From Cyclobacteriaceae bacterium (lineage in GTDB: Bacteria > Bacteroidota > Bacteroidia > Cytophagales > Cyclobacteriaceae), in contig PXCO01000378.1 of assembly GCA_003565295.1 (NCBI GenBank), positions 1-42,554 of the forward strand: a stretch of 42,554 bases of DNA. The letters are read 5' to 3'. The translations under genes and the position numbers were made by a program. The notes beneath the pieces were generated by a model that worked only from the letters and a program-made list of their open reading frames with translations, was not told the origin of the DNA and ran no database searches. This document shows positions 21,291 to 30,665 of the stretch, piece after piece. Position 1 is the first letter of the stretch. Every line of letters begins with the position of its first letter.

Positions 21291-22073
21291 TTAGATATCA
21301 GCGGGCTTTTTGAGCATGCGCTCCAGACATTCTTCTATTTCAGGGATAGAAGCATAAAGCTGCTCATAACTCTCGATCACATAATACCTGTCTTGAAACC
21401 TGTTTTTCCAATAAGGGTTGTTTAGGATGGTTTCCACGTCAAAGTCAAGATGCCTAGGTTCCTCGGAAAGGCAGTATTTAGTTTCACCTGCGGAACTCAA
21501 TATCCCGGCCCCATATACCCTCAGGGAGCCATTTTCCAGGATAAGTCCAAACTCAATGGTAAACCAATACATTCTGGACAATAGCTCTATTGCCAGCGGG
21601 TTATCCAAGTTAGTTAAGGCTATCCTTGCCAGATCGGAAAGAAAAGCCACATACGGCTGATGGGTGAGCAGAGGCAGGTGGGCAAACGCATCGTGAAACA
21701 TATCGGGCTCCTGTAAATAATCCAATTGCTCCTTTTTTCTAAGCCAGGTAGAGGAAGGGAAGCGTTTATGATAAAGCAGCCCGAAAAACAAATCATTATC
21801 TATCAGGCCCGGCACTACCTGCACCGACCACTTGGTACTATCACCCAAAATTTGGTTGACCTTGTTAAAGTTGGCGATTTCCTTTGAAGAAAACCCTATA
21901 AGGTTCAAGCCATCCAAATAAGCCTTGGAGGCAGCATTGGGGAGGTTCTCGTACTGTCTCTCAAAAAGTATTTTCCAAACTTCTAAGTCTTCGGCAGTGT
22001 AGGAGTCATAATCTTGTTTTGAACCTTTAAGTCTGGGGTCGGAGAGTATCCGGCTTTCATCGGGAAGAGGCAT
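21291..22073 (-). CDS. phhA: Phenylalanine 4-monooxygenase-like aromatic amino acid hydroxylase
   Basis: A 260-residue catalytic domain with no ACT regulatory domain. The iron ligands are recognisable: H127 and H132 in PDMFHDAFAHLPLL, and E174 in FTIEFGL. The Gly normally before the second His is Ala here. GAGILSSAGETKY matches the pterin/substrate loop of bacterial enzymes. It hydroxylates Phe to Tyr with a pterin and oxygen, giving either Tyr supply or the first step of Phe breakdown. It lies 122 nt after aroF, with a hairpin-plus-T-run only 22 nt before its start, so its expression may be read-through or attenuated. Confidence 0.9.
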   Translation of the reverse strand: MPLPDESRILSDPRLKGSKQDYDSYTAEDLEVWKILFERQYENLPNAASKAYLDGLNLIGFSSKEIANFNKVNQILGDSTKWSVQVVPGLIDNDLFFGLLYHKRFPSSTWLRKKEQLDYLQEPDMFHDAFAHLPLLTHQPYVAFLSDLARIALTNLDNPLAIELLSRMYWFTIEFGLILENGSLRVYGAGILSSAGETKYCLSEEPRHLDFDVETILNNPYWKNRFQDRYYVIESYEQLYASIPEIEECLERMLKKPADI

Positions 22074-22195: not shown

Positions 22196-23215
22196 TTATA
22201 ACAATGGGAAAGTTTTGCGCATCGCAAAAGTCTTACGAATCTGGTCTGCCAGTAGTGCACTCTGGGCGAAATTCAGCGTCTGTTGACCGTCAGAATAGGC
22301 CTTGTCAGGATCCTCATGGGTTTCATAGATGATGCCGTCGGCTCCTGCCATAACCCCGGCCAATGCCATCTGGGCCACGAAATCCCTGATCCCTATGCCA
22401 TGGGAAGGATCCACCACCACTGGAAGGTGGGACTTTGATTTCAAAATAGGTACTGCATTTAAATCAAGGGTATTTCTGCTGGCCTTTTCATAGGTTCTTA
22501 TCCCCCTTTCACAGAGGATCAGCTTTTCATTACCTCCGGAAAAAACGTATTCCGCAGATTGCAACAGTTCTTCTATGGTACCTGAGATCCCTCTTTTGAT
22601 CAATACTGCTTTATCGATTTTCCCCAATTCATCGAGCAGGTTGAAATTCTGGGTGTTTCGTGCACCTACCTGGAATACATCCACGTAGTCGTGCATTTCC
22701 TCTATCTGGGACACTTGCATCACCTCCGTCACGATCTTAATACCGGCTGCCTTGGCATGTTTGTACCATAGCTTGAGTCCTTCCATACCCATACCCCTGA
22801 AGGAATAGGGACTGCTCCTGGGTTTAAATACCCCTCCTCTCATAAGGTTAATCCGGTTGGATTTAAGATGGGCTATGGTATGGACAATTTGCTCTTCCGA
22901 CTCTATGGAACAGGGGCCTGCCACTATTGCCATATCCCCATCCTTGATGCTTACCCCATCACCCAAATCAATGGATGTAGGCTTAACCTTCCACTTTTTA
23001 GAGACCAACTTATAATCATCAGAAACGACATGGATATCCTGAATGCCATTGAGGTGGCCAATGCTTCTTATGTCAAACTCCCCGGTACCGGTACCGATCA
23101 GGTACTCCCCTTTCTGGGTTTTTACTTCTGTGATTTTATAGCCTACCTTATTGACCTGGGTCATCAAGGCTTCTTTTTCTGCGGCACTTACGTCTAGCCT
23201 AAGTTGAATGATCAT
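22196..23215 (-). CDS. aroF: 3-deoxy-7-phosphoheptulonate (DAHP) synthase, type I-beta with N-terminal regulatory domain
   Basis: A 339-residue protein. Residues about 1-70 form a ferredoxin-like domain as in the Thermotoga-type enzyme. The catalytic barrel has IVAGPCSIES, MRGGVFKPRSSPYSFRG, RGISGT, ILCERGIRTYE and VVVDPSHGIG, the substrate- and metal-binding set of this family. It condenses PEP and erythrose-4-phosphate, the first shikimate step. Its start overlaps the trpA stop by 4 nt, so it is translationally coupled to the trp operon and falls under the same attenuator. Confidence 0.95.
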   Translation of the reverse strand: MIIQLRLDVSAAEKEALMTQVNKVGYKITEVKTQKGEYLIGTGTGEFDIRSIGHLNGIQDIHVVSDDYKLVSKKWKVKPTSIDLGDGVSIKDGDMAIVAGPCSIESEEQIVHTIAHLKSNRINLMRGGVFKPRSSPYSFRGMGMEGLKLWYKHAKAAGIKIVTEVMQVSQIEEMHDYVDVFQVGARNTQNFNLLDELGKIDKAVLIKRGISGTIEELLQSAEYVFSGGNEKLILCERGIRTYEKASRNTLDLNAVPILKSKSHLPVVVDPSHGIGIRDFVAQMALAGVMAGADGIIYETHEDPDKAYSDGQQTLNFAQSALLADQIRKTFAMRKTFPLL

Positions 23216-23994
23216 TGTTTTACCTTCTGTATGAAAGAATGAATAGCAGGGGATAGATCTCCTTTCTCATTGGCCTTTTTCAATATATTGATAAAGGCGC
23301 TCCCTATAATAGCACCGTGGGCATATTGCGAAGCCTTTGAAAAGGTTTCATGATCGGAAATTCCAAATCCTATAAGTCTGGGATTACTTAGCTCCATGCG
23401 TTGAATCCTTTCAAAATAAGTAACCTGCTCCTGGCTTATACCGGACTTTGCTCCAGTAATGCTTGCCGAGGAAACCATATATATGAACCCATCGGAATGC
23501 TGGTCTATTTCCCGGATTCTAGCCTCACTGGTTTGGGGACTGATCAAAAAGGTATTCCTTAGCCCATATTCATCAAACAATTCTTTATATTCATAAATGT
23601 ATTGTTTCATTGGCAAATCAGGGATGATCAATCCATCCACTCCCACTTCCTTGCATTTTTGGCAGAACTTTTCCACACCATATTGTACCACTGGATTAAG
23701 GTAACCCATCAAAATGACTGGTAGGCTCAAATGCTCTCGCATGTTGGCAAGTTGCTCAAACAATTTATGTAGGCTCATGCCATTGCTTAAGGCCACCATA
23801 TTGCTGTCCTGTATGGTAGGGCCATCAGCTATGGGGTCAGAATAGGGTACTCCCACCTCAATGATGTCGGCACCAGCCGACTCCAGTGCCTTCATGACGG
23901 GCAGGGTGTCCTCAAGATGAGGAAAACCTGCAGTGAAATAAATGGATAAAATATCCTTCTTTTTATTTTTGAAAAGTTGGTCAATTCTGTTCAT
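23212..23994 (-). CDS. trpA: Tryptophan synthase alpha subunit
   Basis: A 260-residue (beta/alpha)8 barrel. The catalytic Glu 46 is in IIEVGVPYSDP, Asp 57 in ADGP, and the phosphate-binding loops are GFGISD and GAIIGSAF. It cleaves indole-3-glycerol phosphate to indole for TrpB. The family-typical YFTAGFP opening supports the start. It lies 12 nt after trpB. Confidence 0.97.
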   Translation of the reverse strand: MNRIDQLFKNKKKDILSIYFTAGFPHLEDTLPVMKALESAGADIIEVGVPYSDPIADGPTIQDSNMVALSNGMSLHKLFEQLANMREHLSLPVILMGYLNPVVQYGVEKFCQKCKEVGVDGLIIPDLPMKQYIYEYKELFDEYGLRNTFLISPQTSEARIREIDQHSDGFIYMVSSASITGAKSGISQEQVTYFERIQRMELSNPRLIGFGISDHETFSKASQYAHGAIIGSAFINILKKANEKGDLSPAIHSFIQKVKQ

Positions 23995-24006: not shown

Positions 24007-25185
24007 TTAATAGTTTCCCCATTTGATATATGTTTCCAAATCCTTATCCCCCCTTCCTGAGAGGTTAATCACGATGACATCGTCCTTGTTAAACCGAATT
24101 TGGTCCAATGCAGAAAAGGCATGGGCGGATTCTATGGCGGGTATGATCCCTTCTAACCTACTCAACATGATGCCTGCTTGCATGGCCGCCTCATCTTCCA
24201 CGGCTACAAACTCCCCTCTTCCACTGTCGAAAAGGTGGGCATGTACAGGGCCTATGCCTGGGTAATCCAGTCCCGCTGAAATGGAATGGGGCTCCACCAC
24301 CTGACCATCCTCCGTTTGCATCAGCAAGGTACGGCTTCCATGAAGAATACCTGGTTTGCCCAACATGGTGGTAGCAGCAGATTTCCCGGATTTCACCCCC
24401 AAGCCCGCTGCTTCCACTGCGATTAAGCGAACTTCTGGTTGGTTATAATAATGATAATAGGCCCCTGCCGCATTACTTCCCCCACCCACGCAAGCCACTA
24501 CCAGATCAGGGTTTTCCCTTCCTTCCTTTTCCAGAAGCTGGGTCTTCATCTCCTCTGAGATCACAGATTGAAACCTGGCCACCATCTCCGGATAGGGATG
24601 AGGACCTACCACAGACCCAATGATGTAATGAGTGTCAACGGGGTTATTGATCCATTGGCGCATGGCTTCATTGGTGGCGTCTTTGAGTGTTTTGCTACCG
24701 GATGTTGCCGGTACTACTTTGGAACCCAAGATCCGCATACGCTCCACATTGGGCTTTTGCCTGGCCATGTCCACCTCCCCCATGTAGACGGTACAGTCCA
24801 TTCCCATTAAGGCACAAACTGTGGCGGTGGCCACCCCATGCTGACCTGCCCCAGTCTCTGCAATGATCCTTTTTTTACCCAACTTCTTAGCCAATATGAT
24901 TTGTCCCACCGTATTGTTCACCTTATGGGCCCCAGTGTGGCAGAGGTCTTCCCGCTTGAGATAGATCTTAGCGCCATATTTTTCCGAGAGACGACTGGCA
25001 AAAAACAAGGGGGTAGGTCTGCCCACGTAATCTTTGAGTAGGCTCCTAAATTCTTTTTGGAATTCTTCACTGTTGGTGATGGAAAGATAATTCTCCCTAA
25101 GTTCCTCTATATTGGGATATAACATTTCAGGGATAAAGGCACCGCCAAACTTCCCATAAAACCCGTTTTCATCTACTGCTATCAT
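24007..25185 (-). CDS. trpB: Tryptophan synthase beta subunit
   Basis: A 392-residue PLP enzyme. The cofactor lysine is K88 in [10 protein letters not shown], and the phosphate-binding loop is [19 protein letters not shown] and the C-terminal LSGRGDKDL are canonical for TrpB1. It joins indole and serine into tryptophan, receiving indole by the tunnel from TrpA. It is located 12 nt after trpF, in normal operon order. Confidence 0.98.
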
Positions 25186-25197
25186 CTCTTATTACGT

Positions 25198-25848
25198 TTA
25201 AGCTTCGGATTTCGCCGAAGATCGAATGTACTCAATAAAACTTTTCACCTTTTCTAACTCCTTTAGCCCGGGGGCTTGTTCAAATTTAGAGTTAATATCT
25301 ATGCCTTTCATTTTAGGTAGCTTTCTTGCTAACTCCAATACGGCCTCTTTATGTTCCTCTCCAATTCCCCCACTGAGCAGAAAAGGCTTTGCAAAAGGAT
25401 AGGTATGAATAACCCCCCAATCAAATCTATGTCCAGATCCTCCAAATTGTGGGGTTGCCGTGTCAAAAAGCAACCAATCTATATGCTCAACATAGGGTTC
25501 GGCCTTCTCCCACATCCATTCTTTACCTATACGAAATACTTTTATCACTTCAATCCCTAAGGTTTCTTTTAGCATTCTTGATAGGTCCGGAGGCTCGTCC
25601 CCGTGGAGTTGTACTTTATCAAGGCCATAATCTTTCACTATCCGTTGAATGGAGTGCAAATCCTCATTAACAAACACCCCCACCTTTTCCACATCAAGGT
25701 CCGCGTAAAACGTTGGGGGTAAATTCGCATTTTTCACGTATCTGGGGGAAGCAGGATAGAAGATCAAGCCCATCCAGTCAGGGGAAGGTTCCTTCAGGAG
25801 ACCCTTTATATTCTCCATCTCCCTCATCCCACACACTTTGATGATCAT
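25198..25848 (-). CDS. trpF: Phosphoribosylanthranilate isomerase
   Basis: A 216-residue barrel opening IIKVCGMRE with the catalytic Cys 6. Asp of LFDTATPQFGGSG and the phosphate loop LLSGGIG follow. KMKGIDINSKFE is the typical closing motif. It isomerises phosphoribosylanthranilate to CdRP. Its start overlaps the trpC stop by 4 nt. It is separate from trpC, unlike the enterobacterial fusion. Confidence 0.96.
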   Translation of the reverse strand: MIIKVCGMREMENIKGLLKEPSPDWMGLIFYPASPRYVKNANLPPTFYADLDVEKVGVFVNEDLHSIQRIVKDYGLDKVQLHGDEPPDLSRMLKETLGIEVIKVFRIGKEWMWEKAEPYVEHIDWLLFDTATPQFGGSGHRFDWGVIHTYPFAKPFLLSGGIGEEHKEAVLELARKLPKMKGIDINSKFEQAPGLKELEKVKSFIEYIRSSAKSEA

Positions 25849-26663
25849 AGGGCGTCCAGCGTTTTTTCAGAAAGTAACCTTCGGAAATCATTCATGAAAT
25901 TATAAGCAGCCTGATGGGGCCTTATGTTTTTCATAAAATTCTCCCCAATCAAAAATCCCTGATAACCGGCACTTAGCAATTCAATCAATGTATGAGGGTC
26001 CGAAATACCACTTTCTGAAATCTTCACGAATTCCTCAGGGATCTTATCCACCAGGTGAATACTTGTGGTCACACTTACATCAAAGGTTTTCAGGTTTCGG
26101 TTGTTTACCCCCACCACATCCAGATGTTCGTTAAGGGAACGGTCCAATTCTTCCTCGTCATGCACCTCCATCAAGACCTCCATGCCCAACTCATGTGCAA
26201 ATTTGGCCAAAGAGGAGAGCCTTTCCGGTTCCAAAATGGCGGCAATTAGCAAAATACAATCAGCACCAATCGATTTGGCCTCGATAAGCTGGTATTCATC
26301 GATTATGAATTCCTTTCTTAAAATGGGGCAGAAGTTAAACTTTCTGGCCAACTTTAAATCCTCTGAAGTCCCGCCAAAGAAATGTTCATCTGTAAGAATG
26401 GACAAAGCCGAGGCCCCTGCTTGCATGTAACCAATGGTTGTCCTTTCCACCTTGGCATTAGGGTTGATCCAACCTTTGGAAGGAGACTTCCGCTTAAATT
26501 CAGCGATTATCCCGGTTTTTTCAGGGTCAAGCAGGTATTTCTTCATACTTACTGACCGTGTGCCGAAATATATGCTTTTCTCCAGCAACTTCACCGGCAC
26601 CAAGGCTTTTCTTTCAGCGACTTCCTGCTTTTTATGGGCAACGATTTTTTCTAAGACATTCAT
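25845..26663 (-). CDS. trpC: Indole-3-glycerol phosphate synthase
   Basis: A 272-residue barrel. IIAEFKRKSPSKGWI carries the catalytic lysine and phosphate contact region. LRKEFIIDEYQ, VGVNNRNLKTF, and SESGIS near the C-terminus are canonical. It closes the indole ring from CdRP. One nucleotide separates it from trpD. Confidence 0.97.
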   Translation of the reverse strand: MNVLEKIVAHKKQEVAERKALVPVKLLEKSIYFGTRSVSMKKYLLDPEKTGIIAEFKRKSPSKGWINPNAKVERTTIGYMQAGASALSILTDEHFFGGTSEDLKLARKFNFCPILRKEFIIDEYQLIEAKSIGADCILLIAAILEPERLSSLAKFAHELGMEVLMEVHDEEELDRSLNEHLDVVGVNNRNLKTFDVSVTTSIHLVDKIPEEFVKISESGISDPHTLIELLSAGYQGFLIGENFMKNIRPHQAAYNFMNDFRRLLSEKTLDAL

Positions 26664-26664
26664 G

Positions 26665-27675
26665 TTATCGGGTACTTAAGGTGGTTTTTGGATCCAGCAA
26701 GGTTTTGAACACTTTCAAGGCTTTCCCGCTTATCAGGGACTCACTTGCTTTATCCCGAGCTTCTTCCAGTGACCAATCAGGGCGCGCTGTCGCTAGTGCC
26801 ACTGCAGCATTGGCGATCACAACGGACTCTTGGGCAGGACTACCTTCTCCCCTCAGGATGTTTTCAAAAATCTTGGCAGATTCTTCCACAGTCTGGCCTC
26901 CCCTGATTTCATCGGCGTACACTTTTGTAAAGTTTAAATCCTCTGGAGACATTATCTTTTCCCCCGAATTGCCGATCATTTTGAAATCACCGGTAAGGGA
27001 TACCTCGTCATACCCATCCAATGCATGAATGATGGAGAAGCGCTGCTGATTGCTTTGATAGAGGTAAGCATAAAGCCTGGCTAATTCCAGACTAAAGACT
27101 CCTACCATCTGTTTTTTGGGGAAACTGGGGTTCACCATGGGCCCTAGCATATTAAAAAAAGTTTTTACCCCCAATTCCTTACGAATGGGTCCCACATTTT
27201 TCATTGCCGGGTGAAAGAGTGGTGCATGGAGAAAGCAAATATTAGCCTGATCCAGGCTCTTTCTTATGGTATCAATATCATTGGTGAACGCATAGCCGAA
27301 ATGCGCCAAAAGATTAGAAGAGCCACAAACGGAGCTCACACCAATATTTCCATGTTTGGCCACTGCTTGCCCTGCTCCTGCCACAATAAAGGAGGCCAAA
27401 GTAGAAATATTGAAGGTGTCCTTGCCATCTCCACCGGTGCCACAAAGGTCTATGGCATCATATTCGGGGATTTCTACGGGAATGCACTGTTCCAGCATGG
27501 CTTCCCGGAATCCCATCAATTCCTCCACCTTTACACTTCTCATCAGGAAGACGGTCAAAAAAGCCGCTATTTGACTTTGGTTATATTCCGCGGAGGTAAT
27601 TTTTTTTAACACCTCCTTGGCCTGATCCTTGGTAAGGGTTTTGTGCTCTATGAGATGGTTGAGTATATCTTTCAT
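26665..27675 (-). CDS. trpD: Anthranilate phosphoribosyltransferase
   Basis: A 336-residue protein with the PRPP motif CGTGGDGKDTFNIST, then KHGNIGVSSVCGSSNLL. FLHAPLFHPAMKNVGPIRKELGVKTFFNMLGPMVNP is split by known substrate contacts, and the length is normal. It transfers phosphoribosyl to anthranilate. It is a stand-alone protein and not fused to trpG. It lies 39 nt after trpG. Confidence 0.97.
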   Translation of the reverse strand: MKDILNHLIEHKTLTKDQAKEVLKKITSAEYNQSQIAAFLTVFLMRSVKVEELMGFREAMLEQCIPVEIPEYDAIDLCGTGGDGKDTFNISTLASFIVAGAGQAVAKHGNIGVSSVCGSSNLLAHFGYAFTNDIDTIRKSLDQANICFLHAPLFHPAMKNVGPIRKELGVKTFFNMLGPMVNPSFPKKQMVGVFSLELARLYAYLYQSNQQRFSIIHALDGYDEVSLTGDFKMIGNSGEKIMSPEDLNFTKVYADEIRGGQTVEESAKIFENILRGEGSPAQESVVIANAAVALATARPDWSLEEARDKASESLISGKALKVFKTLLDPKTTLSTR

Positions 27676-27714: not shown

Positions 27715-28281
27715 TTAGGCTTCTAACCAATTTTTCATGATTCTCACCCCATTTTCTGTAAGTATACTTTCGGGATGAAACTGAAGGCCTCTCACATTAA
27801 AGGAAGAATGGGTCACAGCCATAATTTGCCCATCTGGGGTTTTAGCTGTGATTTTCAGCGAGGAGGGTAGTGTGCTTTCATCTATTACCCAACTATGGTA
27901 CCTCCCCACTGTGAACGTTTCCGGCACTCCTTCAAACAACAAATCTGGTTTTACTTTTACGGTGGAAGCCACGCCATGTACCACCTCAGTAAGGTTGGTA
28001 AGCCCGGCACCAAAGGACTCGCCTATTGCCTGATGACCAAGACAAACCCCCAGGATATCCTTTTCTTTAGCATATCTGGAAAGCAGTTGAGGCATAATTC
28101 CTGCGTCAGCAGGTACACCAGGGCCTGGTGAAAGCAAAATCTTATCGTATTGAGCCACAGCCTCGAGGCTGATTTTATCATTTCTGAAGATATCCATCTG
28201 TGGGCCATACCCTAAGTCCCTGATAATATAAACCAGATTATAGGTAAAGGAATCGTAATTGTCCAGTACTAATATTTTCAT
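27715..28281 (-). CDS. trpG: Anthranilate synthase component II (glutamine amidotransferase)
   Basis: A 188-residue class I amidotransferase. The opening is ILVLDNYDSFTYNLV, the nucleophile Cys 80 lies in ILGVCLGHQAIGESFG, and His/Glu in LQFHPESILTENG. It provides ammonia to TrpE. As in many bacteria it could also serve aminodeoxychorismate synthase, if no dedicated pabA exists. It is 41 nt after trpE. Confidence 0.95.
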   Translation of the reverse strand: MKILVLDNYDSFTYNLVYIIRDLGYGPQMDIFRNDKISLEAVAQYDKILLSPGPGVPADAGIMPQLLSRYAKEKDILGVCLGHQAIGESFGAGLTNLTEVVHGVASTVKVKPDLLFEGVPETFTVGRYHSWVIDESTLPSSLKITAKTPDGQIMAVTHSSFNVRGLQFHPESILTENGVRIMKNWLEA

Positions 28282-28322: not shown

Positions 28323-29729
28323 TTAGACTTTTTCTGCCGTCTTCAGAGCCACCCTAAGTGCTTCAAGTTTATTGGATACCTCCTGCAATTCACTTTCTAT
28401 GGAGGATTTTGCCACCACCCCGGCACCTGCCTGAAATCTCAATTGGCTGTTTTCTGAGACGAAGGAACGAATGAGAATAGCATGGTTGAAATCCCCGTTA
28501 AAGCCCAGGTAACCTATGGCACCTCCATAAAACCTACGAGCCTGATTTTCCAGTTCATCGATTAATTCCATTGCCCTGTATTTAGGGGCACCAGAAAGGG
28601 TTCCTGCCGGAAAAGTATCTGCCACCAATTGCAAGGGGTTGGAACCAACTGGTAAGCTCCCGGTTACCTTTGACACCAGATGGATCACATGAGAATAATA
28701 TTGAATTTCCTTAAACACCTCCACTTCCACTTTTTCTGAAGACCTGCTCAAATCGTTCCTGGCCAAGTCCACCAACATGACATGCTCAGAGTTTTCCTTG
28801 GGATCATCATATAATTTTCTGGCCAATTCTGCATCTGCCTCGTCATTGCCCGTCCGCTTAAAGGTCCCTGCTATAGGATAAATGATGGCTTTATGGTCTT
28901 TGATGACGATTTGGGCCTCTGGGGAGCTCCCAAATATTTTAAACGATCCGTAATCGAAATAAAACAAGTAGGGGGAGGGATTGATGGACCGTAAAGCCCT
29001 GTACACATTGAACTCATCCCCCTTGAAGCCCGTGGTGTACGCCCTGGACAGGACAATCTGAAACACGTCCCCTTTGAAACAATGATCCCTTCCCTTGCTA
29101 AGGATATCCAAAAACTCAACGTCAGTGTAATTTGAGGACTCTTCACCGGATAGGCTAAAGGAATAGGATGGTATATTCTTGTTATTTAATACCATTTCAA
29201 TCTTTGGAATACCGGATTCCATCTCCTCTCCTTCCAGGTAATGTTCCAGTATATAAAGTTCATTTTTGAAATGATCCACCACAATCATATTTCTATACAC
29301 CGCGTAATGCATGAGGGGGGTGGAGGATGGCTGGGGGTTTTTTAGATCTATATCTTCAAAAAAAGGAACGGCATCATACTGAATGTAACCAAAGAGCCCG
29401 GAACTGATGAATTTGAATTTCCGGTTTTCGGTGCGGAACCTTGCGCCAAAGCCCCTCAGCACATCCATTACTTTCTCTCCTTTGCCCAGACTTAGCTCTT
29501 GGGGATCCTTGTGGGGAAGTTGCTGCTTGATTTTTCCTCCCACCAGGGAAAAGGTGGCGATAGGATCGCAGCAAATATAGGAGTAGCTGTTCTCGTTCCC
29601 GTGATAATCAGAACTTTCCAGAAGTATGGGGTTGGCATACCTGTCCCTGATTTGGAGGTAGATACTTACAGGAGTAATGGTGTCTGCAAGCAATTTTTTA
29701 TACCTGGTTTTGATATGAAAGGTCTCCAT
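28323..29729 (-). CDS. trpE: Anthranilate synthase component I
   Basis: A 468-residue chorismate-utilising enzyme. The feedback (Trp-binding) motif LLESS is at residues 36-40. The catalytic C-terminal domain shows FKGDVFQIVLSRAY, SPEAQIVI, YPIAGTFKRTG, LVDLARND, GTLSGAPKYRAMELI and GGAIGYLGFNGD. It converts chorismate and ammonia to anthranilate. It is the first structural gene of trpEGDCFBA-aroF. Its start lies 17 nt after the attenuator T-run, so expression depends on the trpL leader. Confidence 0.97.
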   Translation of the reverse strand: METFHIKTRYKKLLADTITPVSIYLQIRDRYANPILLESSDYHGNENSYSYICCDPIATFSLVGGKIKQQLPHKDPQELSLGKGEKVMDVLRGFGARFRTENRKFKFISSGLFGYIQYDAVPFFEDIDLKNPQPSSTPLMHYAVYRNMIVVDHFKNELYILEHYLEGEEMESGIPKIEMVLNNKNIPSYSFSLSGEESSNYTDVEFLDILSKGRDHCFKGDVFQIVLSRAYTTGFKGDEFNVYRALRSINPSPYLFYFDYGSFKIFGSSPEAQIVIKDHKAIIYPIAGTFKRTGNDEADAELARKLYDDPKENSEHVMLVDLARNDLSRSSEKVEVEVFKEIQYYSHVIHLVSKVTGSLPVGSNPLQLVADTFPAGTLSGAPKYRAMELIDELENQARRFYGGAIGYLGFNGDFNHAILIRSFVSENSQLRFQAGAGVVAKSSIESELQEVSNKLEALRVALKTAEKV

Positions 29730-29745
29730 GCGTGCTTCGGTTATG

Positions 29746-29782
29746 TAAAAGAAAAAGGCTTACCGGAGTTCCAGCAAGCCTT
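29746..29782 (-). terminator. trp attenuator: intrinsic terminator with competing antiterminator
   Basis: On the minus strand AAGGCTTGCTGG (29782-29771), loop AACT, CCGGTAAGCCTT (29766-29755): a 12-bp stem including G-U pairs, then TTTTTCTTTT. The competing arm GGAGTTCAGC (29823-29814), just after the leader stop codon, is complementary to GCTGGAACTCC (29775-29765) apart from one bulged base. The same arm can instead pair with AACTTCT inside the leader ORF. This is the classical 1:2, 2:3, 3:4 attenuator layout. Confidence 0.92.
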
Positions 29783-29825
29783 GAATATTGTGTTTCAAAA
29801 TGGGCAATGAAAAGCTGAACTCCCT

Positions 29826-29879
29826 CTATAAGAAGTTAAGATGCCACCACCAGTTTTGTATAAATGTTCTGTTTTTCAT
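29826..29879 (-). CDS. trpL: trp operon leader peptide
   Basis: A 17-codon ORF encoding MKNRTFIQNWWWHLNFL, with three consecutive Trp codons at positions 10-12, then a TAG stop. It lies between a consensus promoter and the trp attenuator. Stalling at the Trp codons would keep the first arm covered and free the next one to form the antiterminator. Ribosomes reaching the stop codon would cover that arm and allow termination. The ATG lies only 9 nt after the -7 box, so the mRNA should be nearly leaderless. Confidence 0.93.
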   Translation of the reverse strand: MKNRTFIQNWWWHLNFL

Positions 29880-29888
29880 AAGCTGTGG

Positions 29889-29918
29889 CAAATATAGCCA
29901 AGGCAAAGAATTATCAAA
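29889..29918 (-). promoter_or_regulatory. trp operon promoter
   Basis: On the minus strand TTTG (29918-29915), 18 nt, then TATATTTG (29896-29889). This fits the Bacteroidota TTTG / TAnnTTTG consensus. Transcription should start a few bases before the trpL ATG. Confidence 0.75.
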
Positions 29919-29952
29919 AACAAAATGTTTTTTATTTCAACAGGGGTTATTG

Positions 29953-30270
29953 TCAAGGGGAAGTTTGGGAAGGGGCTCCATCCATCATGCGTCTATCTTG
30001 CCACACAGGCTGCAGCTGAAGTTCTCTCTCCTCCAAATTGGTCAGTTCTCCATCCTCAAAGGTAGCAAGAATATAAAATCTGTCATCAGTATTCACCCTA
30101 TACACTTTTCTGTTACCGTCCAATTGGCTGATCACTGCTGATCTATTTTGCCTCAAAAACCTGTTTTCTGACATGCCTATCCAATACGGTATCCTAGGTC
30201 TAAAAAGCACACAGGCCTGAAACACCATTAGTATCACCATTACCCAAACCAGACTTCTCAATTTTTTCAT
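29953..30270 (-). CDS. Small lipoprotein, unknown function
   Basis: A 105-residue protein. The signal SLVWVMVILMVFQAC gives a lipobox with Cys 20. The mature part is basic and aromatic, with a short beta-rich middle (RKVYRVNTDDRFYILATFEDGEL in pieces). I recognise no characterised family. It lies upstream of the trp promoter on the same strand but is separated by 74 nt with its own promoter downstream of it, so it is probably a separate unit. Confidence 0.65.
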   Translation of the reverse strand: MKKLRSLVWVMVILMVFQACVLFRPRIPYWIGMSENRFLRQNRSAVISQLDGNRKVYRVNTDDRFYILATFEDGELTNLEERELQLQPVWQDRRMMDGAPSQTSP

Positions 30271-30461: not shown

Positions 30462-30492
30462 TTTGTAGCTCATACTATTACTCGTACCTTTG
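30462..30492 (+). promoter_or_regulatory. SRP RNA promoter
   Basis: TTTG at 30462-30465, a 19-nt spacer, then TACCTTTG at 30485-30492. This is an exact match to the Bacteroidota -33/-7 pattern. The predicted start, about 5 nt downstream, coincides with the base of the SRP RNA stem at 30498. Confidence 0.8.
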
Positions 30493-30497
30493 TACTC

Positions 30498-30579
30498 AAG
30501 CGGCACGACCAGCTCCTGCTGAATCCCCCAGGTCCGGAAGGAAGCAAGGGTAGGCGGTTGTAGCGGTGCGATGCCGCTT
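30498..30579 (+). ncRNA. ffs: Signal recognition particle RNA (small bacterial 4.5S type)
   Basis: The conserved apical domain is present: CCCAGGTCCGGAAGGAAGCA with the GGAA tetraloop and the asymmetric loop that binds Ffh. The ends close as AAGCGGCA (30498-30505) with TGCCGCTT (30572-30579), an 8-bp perfect stem followed by a T-run that would terminate transcription. The RNA pairs with Ffh for co-translational targeting of membrane proteins. Confidence 0.93.
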
Positions 30580-30665
30580 ATTTTTTGGCTTTTCCTGTAT
30601 GATATCCCAATGCTTCTAAATTTTTAACCTAAATTTACGGAAACAAAAAACCACAGTTTATAACT

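Follow-up and report, generated by a model that had tools for sequence, protein, structure and literature searches.

A probable ribosome-mediated attenuator of the trp operon, with its leader AUG close to a putative promoter, in Bacteroidota

How might tryptophan synthesis be regulated in a phylum in which translation starts without Shine-Dalgarno (SD) pairing, and in a genome with no recognisable TrpR or T-box? The question is raised by a Cyclobacteriaceae contig (PXCO01000378.1, assembly GCA_003565295.1), of which positions 1 to 42,554 were analysed and are referred to here as the window. A complete trpEGDCFBA-DAHP synthase operon is encoded there on a single strand (minus), downstream of a short region that a first-pass annotation had read as a ribosome-mediated trp attenuator. 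Most of the operon is identified by profile matches above cut-off, namely trpG (27715..28281; TIGR00566), trpD (26665..27675; TIGR01245), trpC (25845..26663; NF001377), trpB (24007..25185; TIGR00263), trpA (23212..23994; TIGR00262) and the final gene of the run, encoding DAHP synthase, step 1 of the aromatic pathway (22196..23215; NF006421 and TIGR01361). The matches of trpE, anthranilate synthase component I (28323..29729; TIGR00564, E 3e-120, below the equivalog cut-off), and trpF (25198..25848; NF002298, E 2e-43, below the cut-off) are weaker, and both names are backed by operon context. The nearest named TrpE relatives are those of Cyclobacterium and Lunatimonas (82%), which makes Cyclobacteriaceae, Cytophagales, the most likely origin by sequence as well. 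A gene for an aromatic amino acid hydroxylase of the phenylalanine 4-monooxygenase family (21291-22073, minus strand) directly follows the run, and on the opposite strand, just upstream of the operon, is the gene of a small SRP RNA (30491-30583, plus strand; Rfam RF04183, 78.9 bits).

TrpR has no match in the window's own genome. Covariance searches of the genome and the window are likewise negative for T-boxes, which rules out a T-box riboswitch as the identity of the leader region. The presence of a conserved leader ORF points elsewhere than to the TRAP-regulated trp leader of Bacillus, with its mtrB gene and (G/U)AG repeats.

Leader peptide and exclusive pairings upstream of trpE

The leader peptide ORF MKNRTFIQNWWWHLNFL comprises 17 codons, from an ATG at 29879 to a TAG at 29826 (29826..29879, minus strand), and has corresponding leaders in relatives. 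Three consecutive Trp codons, the candidate regulatory codons, occupy 29844..29852. Arm 1 (AACUUCUU; 29830..29837), the anti-antiterminator, is located within the ORF, and arm 2 (AGGGAGUUCAGC, in DNA AGGGAGTTCAGC, with the segments AGGGAGUU and GGAGUUCAGC; 29814..29825) immediately follows the stop codon. A 31-nt spacer separates arm 2 from a 12-bp intrinsic terminator hairpin, AAGGCUUGCUGG-AACU-CCGGUAAGCCUU (in DNA AAGGCTTGCTGG-AACT-CCGGTAAGCCTT; 29755..29782; -18.4 kcal/mol), whose U-tract UUUCUUUU (in DNA TTTCTTTT; 29747..29754) lies 17 nt before the trpE ATG at 29729. Arm 3 (GCUGGAACUCC; 29765..29775), the 3' side of the antiterminator, overlaps the 5' arm and loop of this hairpin; all these elements are on the minus strand.

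Arm 2 has two partners. It pairs either with arm 1, through 8 bp between AACUUCUU and AGGGAGUU that are kept despite substitutions in the closest relatives, or with arm 3, as GGAGUUC(AGC) against GCU(G)GAACUCC, a 2:3 duplex of -18.0 kcal/mol (z -2.7). Because arm 3 shares bases with the 5' arm, the loop and two 3'-arm bases of the terminator, the 2:3 duplex and the terminator cannot form together. As a whole, the 148-nt leader RNA folds at -37.1 kcal/mol, compared with -27.8 +/- 3.2 kcal/mol for dinucleotide shuffles (z -2.9), and better than all but one of 200 such shuffles. Every countable detail that the first-pass annotation had given for this region proved accurate on sequence, translation and fold: the 17-codon leader with its three consecutive Trp codons, the arm after the stop codon, the overlapping antiterminator, the 12-bp terminator with its T-run 17 nt before trpE, and the mutually exclusive pairings 1:2, 2:3 and terminator.

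We consider it probable, at about 0.87, that this region is a classical ribosome-mediated transcription attenuator of the trp operon, with a transcription start ~5 nt before the leader AUG. In the proposed mechanism, a sigma-ABfr promoter would start transcription at that distance, so that a ribosome would load almost at the 5' end of the RNA without an SD site and trail RNA polymerase. If charged tRNA-Trp runs short, the ribosome would stall at the three Trp codons and cover arm 1, leaving arm 2 to pair with arm 3; no terminator would form and trpEGDCFBA-DAHP synthase would be transcribed. With ample Trp, the ribosome would reach the stop codon and cover arm 2, and arms 3 and 4 would form the terminator, stopping transcription before trpE. 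If the leader is not translated, 1:2 and 3:4 would both form and the operon would be off. A textbook ribosome footprint at W11/W12 reaches ~29835-29832 and masks some or most of arm 1; that of a ribosome at the stop codon reaches ~29815 and masks arm 2. The reach of the footprint relative to the arms is thus that of a classical attenuator.

Conservation of Trp codons and pairing arms

The trpE upstream regions of relatives were gathered from family, order and phylum samples, giving 221 distinct regions, in which counts are not independent events since the genomes are related. Regions anchored on trpE were used because searching the window's own genome for WWW by DNA pattern alone gave 18 matches, mostly chance. 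A short leader ORF is present in 198 of the 221 regions, with WWW in 160 and a weaker Trp pair in 38; ten shuffles of the regions yield 0-1 WWW and 1-5 weaker leaders, and the opposite strand yields 0 and 3. The phylum sample contains WWW in 20 of 23 regions. In a second collection, whose species overlap with those of the first, leaders occur in 78 of 80 loci, including those of Flavobacterium, Algoriphagus, Belliella, Hymenobacter and Adhaeribacter.

The RNA elements recur with the peptide. Between the leader and trpE, a hairpin with a U-tract at or below -12 kcal/mol is found for 121 of 197 leaders and for 2 of 99 shuffled sequences. In 63 of 120 usable cases (~2 expected) the 2:3 duplex is stronger than in any of 50 dinucleotide shuffles, and arm 2 lies around the leader stop codon across relatives (median -7..+11). 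The sequence of the antiterminator varies by clade while its pairing is kept, as in GGAGUUCAGC/GCUGGACUCC, GUGAACAGC/GCUGUUCAC, GGGAAAAACC/GGUUUUUCCC and GCGAUAAGUC/GACUUAUCGC, and in L110, among the nearest relatives, a G-C pair is replaced by A-U (GAAGUUCAGC/GCUGGACUUC). Duplexes were evaluated per sequence instead of by column counts, which were dropped because the MAFFT alignment of the closest relatives shifts the antiterminator by one base between sequences and misplaces W codons in L003, L108 and L110. The clade of the window shows a clear 1:2 hairpin; over all leaders this pairing is only weakly above chance (median z -1.4).

Conservation of the Trp codons and pairing arms in relatives had been set beforehand as the check on the attenuator, and both are found in the family, order and phylum samples, which supports the ribosome-mediated reading. 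Alternatively, a Trp-rich ORF and a terminator might be neighbours by chance, or a constitutive terminator might separate operons without any regulation. We regard this as highly improbable, given that WWW leaders are far above the shuffled and opposite-strand controls, which rule out a chance Trp-rich ORF, and that the alternative pairing is conserved. Among the Bacteroidota genomes examined, trpE is commonly preceded by the textbook anatomy of attenuation.

Position of the putative promoter relative to the leader start

In Flavobacterium, the -7 element of Bacteroidota promoters, TAHHTTTG, occupies -12..-5 relative to the transcription start (PMC6847099, PMC9723704). Read 5' to 3' on the minus strand, the window contains a TTTG, an 18-nt spacer, the -7 box TATATTTG (29889..29896), which is an exact match to this consensus, then CCACAGCTT and the leader ORF. 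The TTTG (29915..29918) is a weak motif that resembles the -33 element of a sigma-ABfr promoter (consensus TTTG/TANNTTTG; PMC6847099). It coincides with 29918, the end of the stretch delimited by the first-pass annotation, which is silent on a promoter. Applying the Flavobacterium offset would place the transcription start at 29883..29884 (minus strand), corresponding to a 5'UTR of ~4-5 nt; a start ~5 nt before the AUG implies that the ribosome would load near the 5' end of the RNA.

This placement recurs. The box is located 17 nt from the leader ATG in eight of the nine closest sequences, the window included, and in 96 of 197 leaders an exact box lies no more than 80 nt away, implying 5'UTRs of 0 nt in 4, at most 5 nt in 39, at most 10 nt in 60 and at most 15 nt in 85. 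At -22..-10 of the 197 leaders there are 60 boxes, against 1.7 from shuffles, while the 80 nt upstream of trpE itself contain 3. As a control, 292 ORFs of at least 200 codons in the same loci include 21 with a box, and their median implied 5'UTR is 25 nt, compared with 8 nt for leaders (Fisher p 5e-4 for at most 10 nt). The second collection gives 66 exact boxes, 65 of which imply a 5'UTR of at most 16 nt. Genome-wide, 3.7% of 5'UTRs in B. thetaiotaomicron are shorter than 10 nt (PMC7366714), and a published figure for F. johnsoniae is 87% longer than 10 nt.

The first-pass annotation was correct that the leader lacks an SD site: no SD-like motif precedes the leader AUG in the window. That remark needs context, since SD sites are generally absent in the phylum (PMC6847099, PMC3155529). 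More specific than their absence is the leader AUG's position ~0-17 nt from the putative transcription start. Across relatives, SD-like motifs before the leader AUG are depleted (1 in 197, 6.3 expected), and A is favoured at -3 (57%) and at the first base of codon 2 (85%). Judged by promoter position, initiation at the leader is most likely SD-free and near-leaderless, a placement that points to a way of coupling the leader ribosome tightly to transcription in the absence of an SD site.

A real attenuator could also be translated from an ordinary, longer 5'UTR made from an upstream promoter, the TAnnTTTG near the AUG being incidental or a secondary promoter. The half or so of leaders without an exact box within 80 nt speak for this, their promoters being degenerate or farther away, or the leader lying behind another gene, as does the same-genus relative L002. 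Here, a repeat with AAATCGAGC...GGGATGATTA, of which there are several copies in the vicinity, interrupts the locus at the leader ATG (minus strand), so that the promoter TATCTTTG lies ~180 nt upstream of a leader that is itself intact; this means either that the short 5'UTR can be dispensed with or that control is altered in the L002 strain. A third point is provided by ilvD of the window's genome (L233), which has a branched-chain leader, MFSFVHIIILVVLVI, ~231 nt upstream and, after this leader, a strong terminator. The nearest box is ~121 nt upstream of that leader's ATG, and the long 5'UTR so implied rules out a short 5'UTR as the rule for all amino-acid leaders. Against a longer 5'UTR stand the sharp confinement of the box among trp leaders, in the closest sequences and in the second collection alike, and its recurrence upstream of hisG, and we therefore consider this alternative unlikely.

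The hisG gene of the window's genome (L231/L235) has a His-rich leader MKEALQHSNFLFHHVHRHCL ~140 nt upstream, with a TAAATTTG box 16 nt before the leader ATG. Of 24 relatives, 17 also have a His-rich leader before hisG, and in most of these a box or TTTG is similarly spaced. By its sequence, the hisG leader of the window's genome is a probable near-leaderless his attenuator.

Relation to known leaders, and a tandem form

In E. coli trpL, a leader ORF with consecutive Trp codons, exclusive 1:2, 2:3 and 3:4 pairings and an intrinsic terminator precede trpE. The window shares this anatomy of leader ORF, arms 1-4 and terminator with the E. coli leader (Rfam Trp_leader, RF00513). Unlike it, the window leader has no SD site, an implied 5'UTR of ~5 nt and a putative sigma-ABfr rather than sigma-70 promoter, and it is found in a genome in which no trpR repressor was found. 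A search of 29700-30000 with the RF00513 covariance model yields nothing up to E 10, and no Rfam family reaches its gathering threshold here, matches at E up to 10 being sub-threshold noise. The window leader would work like Trp_leader and is not a sequence member of it.

A second comparison is with trpL of Sinorhizobium meliloti, in which the leader mRNA begins at the AUG and transcription of the trp operon is not controlled by repression (PMC7298713). The likeness lies in the 5' end, at the AUG there and apparently within a few nucleotides of it here, and in the lack of a TrpR match here. The two differ in phylum, promoter type and peptide; the 5'UTR in Bacteroidota would usually be 2-15 nt and not exactly 0, and the leader in the window precedes a full trpEGDCFBA operon, whereas that of S. 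meliloti precedes trpE(G) alone. Terminated leader RNA or peptide also acts in trans in S. meliloti, as rnTrpL and peTrpL (PMC7298713). This precedent, together with a short terminated RNA (putatively ~138 nt), a 5' end of leaderless type and strong conservation of the WWW(H) core, would fit additional trans action in Bacteroidota. In 88 of 159 leaders WWW is followed by His, always as CAY, and in many genomes CAC can pair with GUG of arm 2, so the His may be kept by RNA structure. Residues outside WWW also differ widely between genera, and trans action in addition to attenuation of the trp operon seems to us quite unlikely, more so than a longer 5'UTR.

The attenuation mechanism itself is classical and already known. 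In a comparative study from 2004, Vitreschak and colleagues reportedly predicted some attenuators in Bacteroidetes/Chlorobi. In the open-access literature searched, outside of which most subscription papers lie, there is no description of Bacteroidota trp attenuators, of the near-leaderless design or of the tandem form described below; with a reserve for the 2004 study, that literature does not seem to cover either the tandem form or the recurring use of near-leaderless leaders without an SD site. For Flavobacterium psychrophilum, of the same phylum, an RNA-seq and structure study reports 'strong clues' of attenuation by leader peptides ahead of amino-acid biosynthesis operons (PMC9723704), the same proposal as made here for the window; its main text does not mention trp, nor does it present a leader sequence, an arm model or a pattern of 5'UTR lengths. 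On novelty, the first-pass annotation is incomplete in that these clues for attenuation already existed. The leaders collected here provide a catalogue of trp and his leader peptides, whose small size may well cause annotation to overlook them.

Nine genomes from seven genera (L042, L047, L142, L144, L167, L182, L189, L228 and L229) carry tandem Trp attenuators upstream of trpE, in the order leader 1, terminator 1, leader 2, terminator 2, trpE. Serial leader ORFs before an operon are also known from the tandem attenuators of Salmonella mgtCBR, which encodes MgtC and a Mg2+ transporter (PMC3641672); both tandem leaders in Bacteroidota are Trp-rich, each with its own terminator. We lean towards a general picture in which trp and his attenuators of Bacteroidota use near-leaderless ribosome loading, with the promoter held 12-29 nt from the AUG and the ribosome binding the RNA on its emergence, in step with RNA polymerase, and in which some lineages may stack two Trp attenuators for a sharper response. 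An exact box lies 12-15 nt upstream of leader 1 in seven of the nine tandem loci and upstream of leader 2 in none of the nine, and alternative pairing is supported for most, not all, of the first units.
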